Source: an uncultured Akkermansia sp.
GTDB lineage: Bacteria > Verrucomicrobiota > Verrucomicrobiia > Verrucomicrobiales > Akkermansiaceae
Assembly: GCA_947589345.1 (NCBI GenBank)
Contig: CANQAC010000002.1
Coordinates: 41,692-105,691 of the forward strand
Length of the DNA stretch: 64,000 nucleotides
Direction of reading: 5' to 3'
Every line of letters starts with the position of its first letter. Position 1 is the stretch's first letter. Below are positions 12,627 to 22,301 of this stretch, piece after piece. The notes under the pieces were generated by a model. The model saw nothing but the letters and a program-made list of their open reading frames with translations. It was not told the DNA's origin and did not search any database. Made by a program: the position numbers and the translations under genes.

Positions 12627-14786
12627 TTATTTTTTGTAGAAAGGCGATTTCTCATAGAAGGATCGCATGGCTTCCACGTCAGCCTTGAACTCGGCATTGA
12701 TCGCTTCGATACCTGCCACATCGGCGCAGCGGAAAAGCATGAGCCAATGTCTCCATCCTACATGACGCGCTGCGGGTTGAGAGATTTTGCCCTGCGGATT
12801 GTAGTACAGTTTACCCCCATAATTTACATTTGGTGAGTGTACCTTGAATCCATCTACAGAATCGATCTTCCCCTCCGGAGGATAGGCAGATTGACCATTC
12901 GGATCGAATATCAGATGATTCATCTCTGCGAACCATGAATGACGCGGAGTTTCCTCTATGGCTTTCAGGATGTGCGTAGCGGTTTGCACGGCAAGTTTTT
13001 TTAGCTCTTCTGTGAAGGGAGCCGCAACCTGTTCGTGCCCGACGGCGAGAGCTGCCTTGGTGGCCGTCACCCAATCGGGAGCCATTTTGTCGGTGGCTAT
13101 CTCCGAGAGCTTTCTCTCCTTCCCCTGCTCATCCACAAAGAGGGCGTTATCATTCGCGATATGGGGCGCCGTATAGGCGGGGGCATTGCTCTGCGCGTAG
13201 CAAAGACCCATATTTTCCGCCAACCAGGCGCGACGCAGTGCAGCAGGCATACGGCGTAAGGCTGCGATTCCCTCCTCGTACTGCGTATCTTTGGGCGAAG
13301 CGGCGGTCGTGCCTCCCATGGCGGTCTTTTGCGGTTCCTCGGAAGCGGTGTCCGGCTTCTCGTTTTCGTGGGCAGGTGGAATGAATTCAAGAAGTTCCTC
13401 AGTCCCTAAAATCCGCATGCAGAGCGCTACTTGCGCCATGGTACGCCCGTAATTTGACACAAATTGACTCTGAAGACTAAAAGGCTTGATTTCCCCAAAA
13501 GAATCGACGAAGTAGAGATCCTTTACATTTGGCCCGTTAAAGGTCCAATTGCGCATGAATGTGCGGAGCGTGAAGACTCTGTCGTCCTTCACGTCGGTTG
13601 CCGGCGAACCGTCCTTCTTGACAAATTTGCGGGCGACGTAAGCACGTTCGAGGTCGCGCAACAGGGGCGGCATCTCTTTGAAAAAGGCTTTGCCAAAGTG
13701 TCGTGCCATTTGGCAGATTGGCTCCTTATAGTGTTCCAGAATGACCTCCTGGGGGATTTGCTGCAGCTCACTGAGAAGTTGCCAAGTACGGCCGCTCACA
13801 CTGCGTCCATCCGGCATGTAAATTACCACATGGGGGTTCAGCCAACTGCAGGTATAATTGAACCCGTCATTATTACCCCCTCCATAATAAAGCCCCACGG
13901 AAATAGCTATCTGAGCGTACTTTTTCACAAGGAAGGTCGGTGGGCCGGAATGGTCGTCCTTGCCGGACTTAAATCGCTCCTCCAGCAGTTCAAACATGGA
14001 AGCGATAGCCTCTTCTTCCCGCTTTTTAATCTCCGCGATCTTCTGTTTATGAAATTGGCGCATCGCTTTCACCTCCTCCGGGAAAAGAGTGAGAATATCA
14101 TGAGCTCCAATGAGATCACCACATGCCAGTACAACATTGCCCCAACGCGTATAATCGATGCCTCCCTTCTTTCGAATAGCATCCCACGCCTTTTCTTCCT
14201 TTCCGTCTGCTCCCACAAAACAGCCCTCCCAATCTCCCGGCGCGCTATACTTATGGCCACTATCCAAGGTGATTGTACGCGACTGTTGTTTATGAGAGGC
14301 GCCTTTGACATCCGGATAGTAAAGCTTCTTATCCAGCGTGGCAAGAAGAGCCCAGCGAGCGTCATCCGGCATTTCTTTCAGCAAGTGCCTTGCCGTGTTT
14401 TTTACTACGCGGGTAACATCTTTCGCAAAATAATAGAGAGGGACTTCCAGTTTAAATTGGAGGGTTTTATTGTATATTTCGCCCCATCGACCTTCCTTGA
14501 CATTTCCGATGGCGTCCCCCAATGTCATTATTTTCTTCGTCCGTCCGATAAACAGCGCGTCGCCATAGGTAGCTGGTCGGTTATGATACTGTTTCATAGC
14601 GACGGAGCCATCCGCCTTAAAGAAAAGGCCTAATTGTTCGCATATATAGCAGTCTGCAGCTTGGGGCGGCAATTGCTTAATTTTTGTGACGAGATCCATG
14701 AGATCCTTGCGCTGTTTCCCCTTTATACCGGAAACATCAACCGGCTTGTACTCCGCCCATGCCGTATTCGCGATGCTCGCGAACAT
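12627..14786 (-). CDS. Unknown exported protein with three repeated modules; signal peptide frameshifted by a poly-C tract
   Basis: A 719-residue open frame of no family I recognise. It contains three diverged copies of a module of about 210-240 residues (roughly residues 35-265, 300-500 and 500-719). Each has a Leu-Gly-Leu-x-(Tyr/Phe) segment, a (L/Y)F(V/I)-x3-G-(K/R/E) strand, an amphipathic helix and a closing segment ending in M-(R)-x-F (MRQFHKQK, MRSFYEKS). The first ATG falls inside a signal peptide: the in-frame codons upstream read KRFIIFVASIVL before MFASIANTAWA, with no standard start. Joining the ATG at 14868 across the 10-C run (14846-14855) to this frame needs one C fewer. With nine Cs the product would have a complete signal peptide starting MTAFAPPLSLLLAYFKRF. 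As sequenced, that frame stops after 15 codons. Candidate phase-variable exported protein, or a homopolymer sequencing error. Confidence 0.7.
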   Translation of the reverse strand: MFASIANTAWAEYKPVDVSGIKGKQRKDLMDLVTKIKQLPPQAADCYICEQLGLFFKADGSVAMKQYHNRPATYGDALFIGRTKKIMTLGDAIGNVKEGRWGEIYNKTLQFKLEVPLYYFAKDVTRVVKNTARHLLKEMPDDARWALLATLDKKLYYPDVKGASHKQQSRTITLDSGHKYSAPGDWEGCFVGADGKEEKAWDAIRKKGGIDYTRWGNVVLACGDLIGAHDILTLFPEEVKAMRQFHKQKIAEIKKREEEAIASMFELLEERFKSGKDDHSGPPTFLVKKYAQIAISVGLYYGGGNNDGFNYTCSWLNPHVVIYMPDGRSVSGRTWQLLSELQQIPQEVILEHYKEPICQMARHFGKAFFKEMPPLLRDLERAYVARKFVKKDGSPATDVKDDRVFTLRTFMRNWTFNGPNVKDLYFVDSFGEIKPFSLQSQFVSNYGRTMAQVALCMRILGTEELLEFIPPAHENEKPDTASEEPQKTAMGGTTAASPKDTQYEEGIAALRRMPAALRRAWLAENMGLCYAQSNAPAYTAPHIANDNALFVDEQGKERKLSEIATDKMAPDWVTATKAALAVGHEQVAAPFTEELKKLAVQTATHILKAIEETPRHSWFAEMNHLIFDPNGQSAYPPEGKIDSVDGFKVHSPNVNYGGKLYYNPQGKISQPAARHVGWRHWLMLFRCADVAGIEAINAEFKADVEAMRSFYEKSPFYKK

Positions 14787-14845
14787 CAGAACAATTGACG
14801 CGACAAAAATTATAAAACGCTTAAAATAAGCTAATAACAGAGACA

Positions 14846-14855
14846 GGGGGGGGGG
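14846..14855. repeat. Homopolymer of 10 G (10 C on the coding strand), candidate phase-variation tract
   Basis: Ten identical bases between an upstream ATG (14868, minus strand) and the signal-peptide codons of the downstream gene. Ten Cs put the two out of frame; nine or twelve would join them. This is the arrangement of contingency loci controlled by slipped-strand mispairing. Confidence 0.7.
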
Positions 14856-15019
14856 CGAAGGCAGTCATAAAAAATAAAGGGAACAGGCTAAACCGTGAAG
14901 CACGTGCCAAATTTCGACATGAGATAACGAACTGTTGTCGATAAAGGCAAGAGCATTCTATTCTGTGCCACCTTACTAGTAAAGCTTTTTTTGCGCACTC
15001 GGACAAAATCCGGGATTAT

Positions 15020-19778: not shown

Positions 19779-22301
19779 ATGGCTGAGAGCAGCTCTATAA
19801 GCCCGATGATGGATCAGTATCTGCGCATGAAGCAGGCACTGCCGGACGATGTGTGGCTATTCTTCCGGCTGGGAGATTTCTATGAGATGTTCTTTGAGGA
19901 TGCGGTGGCTTGCTCGCAAGCGTTGGGCCTCACCCTCACCAAGCGGCAGAGCATCCCGATGTGCGGCGTCCCCTACCATGCGGCGGAAAATTACATCAGC
20001 AAAATTGTCGAGTTAGGAAAGCGGGTGGCTATTGCAGAGCAGATGACCACCCCCGTACCCGGCAAACTGGTGGAACGAGAAATCACTCATCTGATCTCCG
20101 CCGGGACATTGGCTGATATGAACTTGCTCGATGCCGGAGAGCACAACTATATCGCTGCATGTTACTGTGACAAAAAGGTTTGGGGGCTGGCCTGCGCCGA
20201 CCACAGCACCGGGGAATTTTCTGTGGCCGAGTATCCCTCGCTGGATGACCTGGCGGAAGAGGTAACTCTGCTTCGTCCGCGTGAATTGCTGGTAAGTGAA
20301 GAACAAGCCGACCTCTTCACAAGTCTTCCCGTCACGCTCAAGTACGATGGCTACACGTTTCTGCCGACGCTGGCGCGCGGGGCTTTGGAAACCCATTTCC
20401 GAGTTCATTCGCTGGAGGGCTTTGGCTGCGCTCACATGAGCGCTTCATTGGGAGCTGCCGCGGCCATTCTGCACTACTTAAAAAATCAGCTCAAACGCAG
20501 TACGGATCACCTGCTTCATCTTTCCTTGCGTCCCACAAAGCGAGTGGTCCTTATCGATGCTGCCAGCCGCCGAAATTTGGATTTAGTGGAAGCACGCGGC
20601 GGTGTCAAAAACACTTTGCTAGGTGTGCTGAACAACACCGGGACTCCCATGGGCGCCCGCCTTCTGCGCGAATGGCTTCTGCATCCCATCTGCGATCTCA
20701 AAGAACTGACGCGGCGGCAAGAACTCATCGCCTCCTTTCTGGCAGAACCATTTTTGATGAGTAAGTTACGCGATTCACTCAAAAAAGTGCGTGACTTAGA
20801 ACGCCTTTCCTCTCGGCTTTCCCAAGGCGCCGGCAACGCTCGAGACCTCCTTGGGCTCCATCTTTCTCTCTCCGTCCTGCCGGATGTGCTGGATGATCTG
20901 ACCTCCCTGAGCAAGAAGCAAGCTCAACCGGCCGCTATTGCGGCGCGCGTGAGCAACTTCACTGAGCTGACGCAACTGCTTGTGCGCGCGCTCGTGGAAG
21001 ATCCTCCCACCACAATCAAGGACGGCGGAATGATACGCGACGGTTATAATGCCCAGTTGGATGAATTACGGCACGCCTCGCACGATGGCAAAGTATGGCT
21101 TGCAGAGATGGAGGCGCGCGAGCGCAAAGCCACTGGTATTGATTCACTTAAAATCCGCTACAACAGTGTCTTTGGTTACTACATTGAAGTCACCAAAGCT
21201 AATCTTTCCAAAGTGCCGGAGCATTACCGCCGCAAACAGACACTCGCTAACGCAGAACGCTATATCACTGATGACCTCAAGAAGATGGAAAGCACCATCT
21301 TGGGAGCCGATGAGCGAGCCCAACAACTTGAGTATGAAATATTCTGCCAATTACGAGAAGCCGTCGCCGGGCATTTGAACAATATCCAGGAAACAGCGGC
21401 GGCGCTTGCTGAGCTGGATGTTCTGCTCAGTCTCGCTGAAACGGCCCGACTCCATAACTACTGTCGTCCTGTCCTGGATTCAAGCCGCTCCCTTCATATT
21501 GTGGACGGGCGCCATCCTGTCATCGAACAGGTTCAGGAGGGTACTTCATTCGTCCCCAACGACACCGAAATGGATGAGGAAACGAACCGCCTCGTTATAC
21601 TTACCGGACCCAATATGGCCGGTAAGTCCACTTATATCCGGCAAGTCGCTCTCATCGTCCTGATGGCCCAGATGGGGTCGTTCGTGCCGGCTAAACAAGC
21701 CCACATTGGCTTGGTGGATCGTATTTTTTGTCGAGTCGGCGCAAGTGATGATATCGCCGGAGGGCAGTCGACCTTCATGGTAGAAATGAGCGAGACTGCC
21801 CTTATCCTCAACAATGCCGATGAACGATCTCTGGTCATCCTTGATGAAATCGGTCGAGGCACTGCCACCTACGACGGTCTCTCCATTGCATGGGCCGTGG
21901 CTGAGCATCTGCACGATGTCATTGGCGCTCGCACGCTCTTTGCCACGCATTACCACGAAATGGTGGATCTGCAGACCACTCACCCCGCCATCGGGAATTG
22001 GCATGTCGAGGTGCGTGAATGGCATGATGAAATTATCTTTCTGCGCAAGGTATTGCCAGGCCCGGCCGATAAGTCGTATGGCATCCAAGTGGCACGACTG
22101 GCCGGGCTCCCAGCCTCCATCATTGAACGCGCTAAACGCATTCTCACTCACTTGGAAATGAGCGCCTCCATGCGGGAACCGTCACCGGAAAAGCAAGCTG
22201 CTCAGCGGAGCAAAAGAAGACCGACGAACCTGCCCAAAGCCGCTCCCCCTGCGGATGTAGCCCAGCTTGATCTTTTTGATAAACTTGACCCCGGCATCTA
22301 A
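19779..22301 (+). CDS. mutS: DNA mismatch repair protein MutS
   Basis: Recognises base mismatches and starts methyl- or nick-directed repair with MutL. At 840 residues it has the normal MutS1 length. The mismatch-contacting Phe-x-Glu is in GDFYEMF near residue 33. The ABC-type ATPase has Walker A GPNMAGKST, then STFMVEMSETA (signature region) and DEIGRGTATYDG (Walker B). The C-terminal QLDLFDKL resembles the beta-clamp or MutL contact region. It is a single-gene unit with its own short-leader promoter. Confidence 0.97.
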   Translation: MAESSSISPMMDQYLRMKQALPDDVWLFFRLGDFYEMFFEDAVACSQALGLTLTKRQSIPMCGVPYHAAENYISKIVELGKRVAIAEQMTTPVPGKLVEREITHLISAGTLADMNLLDAGEHNYIAACYCDKKVWGLACADHSTGEFSVAEYPSLDDLAEEVTLLRPRELLVSEEQADLFTSLPVTLKYDGYTFLPTLARGALETHFRVHSLEGFGCAHMSASLGAAAAILHYLKNQLKRSTDHLLHLSLRPTKRVVLIDAASRRNLDLVEARGGVKNTLLGVLNNTGTPMGARLLREWLLHPICDLKELTRRQELIASFLAEPFLMSKLRDSLKKVRDLERLSSRLSQGAGNARDLLGLHLSLSVLPDVLDDLTSLSKKQAQPAAIAARVSNFTELTQLLVRALVEDPPTTIKDGGMIRDGYNAQLDELRHASHDGKVWLAEMEARERKATGIDSLKIRYNSVFGYYIEVTKANLSKVPEHYRRKQTLANAERYITDDLKKMESTILGADERAQQLEYEIFCQLREAVAGHLNNIQETAAALAELDVLLSLAETARLHNYCRPVLDSSRSLHIVDGRHPVIEQVQEGTSFVPNDTEMDEETNRLVILTGPNMAGKSTYIRQVALIVLMAQMGSFVPAKQAHIGLVDRIFCRVGASDDIAGGQSTFMVEMSETALILNNADERSLVILDEIGRGTATYDGLSIAWAVAEHLHDVIGARTLFATHYHEMVDLQTTHPAIGNWHVEVREWHDEIIFLRKVLPGPADKSYGIQVARLAGLPASIIERAKRILTHLEMSASMREPSPEKQAAQRSKRRPTNLPKAAPPADVAQLDLFDKLDPGI

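Follow-up and report, generated by a model that had tools for sequence, protein, structure and literature searches.

The DNA analysed here, a 64-kb window from the genome of an uncultured Akkermansia (2.25 Mb in 102 contigs), carries on its minus strand a 719-codon frame that opens at ATG 14786 and runs down to 12627, with no ATG, GTG or TTG in frame ahead of 14786. Read along that strand, ATGACTGCCTTCG is followed by ten Cs, then by TGTCTCTGTTATTAGC and then by the 719-codon frame itself. The features of the locus, all on the minus strand, are:

14955..14983, minus strand: promoter-like pair TTTACT - 17 nt - TAGAAT, a putative promoter about 90 nt 5' of the ATG
14866..14868, minus strand: start codon ATG of the candidate switchable frame; in the comparison with other copies an open ATG precedes the tract in 99/99 tract-bearing copies
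14846..14855, minus strand: poly-C tract, C10 and OFF as assembled, from the sequence and its translation over tract lengths
14812..14840, minus strand: conserved leader core CTGTTATTAGCTTATTTTAAGCGTTTTAT, the first signal-peptide codons past the tract, from leader comparisons
14754..14868, minus strand: stretch read in the ON frame as leader plus signal peptide, with ANTAWA at its end and EYKP next, the junction being the probable cleavage site
12627..14786, minus strand: 719-codon frame of a predicted exported protein, the mature part beginning near 14753

When the tract was translated in silico at every length from 6 to 16 Cs, the ATG frame stopped after 15 codons with ten Cs and after 12 codons with eleven, and with nine (also with 6, 12 or 15) it gave MTAFAPPLSLLLAYFKRFIIFVASIVLMFASIANTAWA-EYKP... 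in frame, joining the signal peptide to the 719-codon frame. An earlier, sequence-only reading of the locus had placed an ATG and ten Cs upstream of a long frame that lacks a normal start before 14786, and had calculated that ten Cs end the ATG frame after 15 codons and nine carry it through the signal peptide and the whole protein; the coordinates hold on the minus strand and the calculation agrees with the translations.

The C10 is the sole C or G run of at least 8 within the window, where shuffled windows hold a mean of 0.07 such runs and 5 of 100 shuffles reach a C10; the whole genome contains 11 runs that are at least 10 long. By itself the tract is only mildly improbable, and what makes it significant is that roughly a hundred related loci have it in a conserved position. 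The window also contains, at 19779-22301, an intact-looking mutS with five MutS domains, so the tract need not reflect a loss of mutS repair.

The protein belongs to a family with four members in the source genome, and its named relatives all come from uncultured Akkermansia MAGs labelled Lapin, a French word that suggests they originate from rabbits. No significant match was found in Pfam, NCBIfam, the PDB sequences or, with Foldseek, the PDB folds, and DUF730 was rejected as its identity as the match falls under the cut-off of that family. The AlphaFold prediction, whose confidence is mixed (mean pLDDT 81, pTM 0.47), has helices and strands in a pattern that recurs along the chain, with no match in the PDB.

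The leader and its copies in Akkermansia

A search with the 5' region of the window matched many places in relatives, which have in common an ATG, a run of Cs and codons resembling TTGTTATTAGCTTATTnTAAGCGTTTTAT. A sequence-model search then gave 117 leader matches, confined to 12 of the 76 Akkermansia genomes, each of which has between 1 and 17, the source genome five. Judged by these alignments, the putative promoter, the ATG, the poly-C tract and the first signal-peptide codons together constitute a dispersed leader. The genes found 3' of its copies encode ankyrin-repeat proteins, Sel1 proteins, outer-membrane beta-barrel proteins and members of the window family. The window protein has no similarity to the ankyrin protein, and the match between barrel and ankyrin proteins lies mainly at the leader, which on this comparison is a repeated module common to unrelated genes, a point that the sequence-only reading had missed. 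That Akkermansia exports ankyrin proteins has been remarked on before (PMC10540074).

The promoter-like pair occurs in 46 of 50 leaders, compared with 14% in shuffles, and its -10 element mostly lies 30-43 nt ahead of the ATG, the site in the window being at a greater distance from its ATG than in other copies; a homologous leader in genome G014 has TGTACT - 17 nt - TAGAAT. The exact leader core is absent from viral contigs, the leader has no match among phages and the window protein none among plasmids, so that nothing points to carriage by a phage or plasmid.

Frame state and tract length of the copies

All of the tract-bearing copies examined have their open ATG 11-27 nt 5' of the tract, where the shuffle expectation is 19% per copy (estimated from the first 52 copies), and the distance from ATG to tract equals 1 mod 3 in 94 of the 99. 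As assembled 15 of these 99 are in frame, a few of the in-frame and OFF calls coming from copies at contig ends or with short frames. The sequence-only reading had named the tract in relatives as a point on which its proposal would stand or fall; the tract is kept in most leader copies, at lengths of 5-14, and among the nine copies that lack it 7 are in frame from the same ATG, one is in frame from a second ATG and one is not in frame (7/9 against 15/99, Fisher p=0.0002). The five leader copies in the source genome are all OFF as assembled, and the only further leader in the window family that carries a tract, at L053 (C14), is OFF too.

Taking tract lengths as the assemblies give them, with a homopolymer accuracy that may vary, the number of Cs is unequal in 7 of 10 close pairs, these being comparisons between genomes and paralogs rather than along a strain series of one species. 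The copy at G008:C34 has C9 and is OFF whereas that at G014:C46 has C10 and is ON, with 99% identity over 300 gap-free flanking bases. As in SSR translational phase variation, a repeat at the 5' end has ON and OFF length classes, and its length varies among close relatives with the flanks constant. The dN/dS between copies, most of them OFF, is 0.15-0.40, which argues against decay and indicates that the coding regions are under purifying selection.

It is therefore highly probable, on these comparisons, that the window locus is one of a multi-locus phase-variable set of genes with a common leader module, switched by slipped-strand mispairing. Transcription would start at the upstream promoter, and translation very probably begins at the ATG just 5' of the poly-C run, a start strongly supported by the comparison. 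Slipped-strand mispairing during replication would then alter the number of Cs, as the length differences of near-identical copies suggest, and since one length class in three fuses the ATG to the signal peptide the protein would be made and exported only in that class; the rate of switching, like the biological role of the proteins, is something that we infer rather than observe. The leader genes are probably each switchable ON and OFF independently, so that with a separate tract for each copy the mix of ankyrin-repeat, Sel1, beta-barrel and window-family proteins that a population exports may shift. The proposal of the sequence-only reading, that of an exported protein switched by slippage and OFF as assembled, is on the frames, the conserved ATG and the tract-length differences the best-supported account of the locus.

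A simple switch model leaves one feature unexplained, as the ON share of 15% is below the one third expected without bias (p=6e-5). It is possible that this OFF excess reflects a cost of expression, the sampling of populations that are mostly OFF, or slippage by RNA polymerase or the ribosome. Such slippage on the C run could also stand as an explanation in its own right, in which OFF templates give a low and steady amount of protein, the tract setting a leak instead of an inherited switch, and it would help to account for so few tract-bearing copies being in frame; but near-identical copies differ in length at the level of DNA, as replication slippage predicts, and whilst both processes may act together the leak is a very improbable substitute for the switch.

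The genomes are short-read assemblies, and the OFF state of the five copies in the source genome is in each case that of the assembly, thus the true tract could have nine Cs, or the gene could be broken by a fixed frameshift, with no switching in either case. This would leave it unclear why, across 12 genomes, tract-bearing copies are usually out of frame and tract-less ones mostly in frame, why the coding regions are under purifying selection, or why near-identical copies have unequal tract lengths, and such an error or lesion is given scarcely any weight.

Codons 2-9 of the leader core are almost invariant, synonymous positions included, to an extent that exceeds the rest of the signal peptide, although this synonymous conservation is partly an effect of ascertainment as the copies measured had been retrieved with the core. 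The window gene also looks chimeric, with a body that has 92% identity to one paralog in G086:C42 and a leader that has a 78% match to the leader of the adjoining tract-less paralog there; body and leader match different paralogs, which supports an exchange of leaders between genes in this one case. Both observations would fit conservation of the core as a site in DNA or RNA, either an anchor for recombination or the target of a regulator, with the tract as a by-product. In place of the switch this has just as little credence as an assembly error or broken gene, for besides the bias in the measure it leaves the ATG and the frame pattern unexplained, but it may hold in addition. It is quite possible, if somewhat short of probable, that the leader is a portable switch module, with promoter, start codon, poly-C and the opening codons of the signal peptide copied by recombination before new exported proteins; unrelated families would then share one kind of ON/OFF control, biased so that most copies stay OFF.

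The least probable alternative is a start at ATG 14786, where the annotated frame opens, or at a TTG or CTG right after the tract (TTG is the first core codon in 40 of 50 copies), either of which would make the tract irrelevant to expression; a start at ATG 14786 would leave the signal peptide largely untranslated, the copies without TTG have CTG (as in the window), TCA, TCG or CCG as their first core codon, and the upstream ATG, which no tract-bearing copy lacks, is in frame in most copies once the tract is lost.

Known systems and other tracts

The nearest design is that of the multi-locus opa genes of Neisseria, in which CTCTT repeats in the region of the leader peptide shift the frame by slipped-strand mispairing (PMC3960869). 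In both a 5' leader repeat sets, or here would set, the reading frame of exported surface proteins at many loci; opa has CTCTT and one protein family, whereas here a single leader with a C run precedes several unrelated families, and with a C run as its repeat the Akkermansia system would work like opa but is not opa.

Within the genus, Amuc_1413 of A. muciniphila undergoes a G9 to G10 frameshift, called phase variation by the authors, with loss of mucin binding (PMC13055324). There too a homopolymer of nine gains one base, but that tract lies at about codon 55 of a single exopolysaccharide gene, with no signal-peptide leader and no repeated module. The cps1 inverton of A. muciniphila also gives phase variation of a surface structure (PMC13343947), yet by DNA inversion rather than tract length. 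The 2011 genome paper on A. muciniphila found that long mononucleotide repeats are over-represented at gene termini and proposed slippage (PMC3048395); the portion of its text that was found describes no shared leader. In the open-access literature, to which the search was confined, no account of a poly-C leader shared between genes was found. Poly-G phase variation has thus already been reported in A. muciniphila, and it is the leader shared by several families that appears to be new.

If the switching is real, these gut symbionts, with up to 17 loci per genome, could vary their exported proteins in a great many combinations, a strategy known above all from pathogens. The system would offer a test case for why a commensal living in mucus varies ankyrin-repeat, Sel1 and barrel proteins, with phage, antibody and host ligands as candidate reasons, and for how one switch leader spreads over unrelated genes.

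Other tracts were seen in the family and in the genome. A second type of leader is found in the window-family paralogs L004, L006, L009, L033, L037, L039, L040, L047 and L050 (for example L040:2338), with an ATG 29 nt before a C8 or C9 that is followed by about TGTTGACCGCAATATATTGATATTGC. This gives a short leader frame whose end is set by the number of Cs, and the main gene begins with a separate ATG and signal peptide, 88-129 nt past the tract. The source genome has several further C or G tracts of at least 8 close to gene starts. At L181 (G000:C45:5267) a 500-codon frame, which on inspection by eye could encode an acyltransferase, has a G9 close to its 5' end, and the ATG frame there opens at eight Gs. 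The frame just past a run of 21 Cs at L023 (G000:C6:73695-73715) is, again by eye, similar to an ECF sigma factor.
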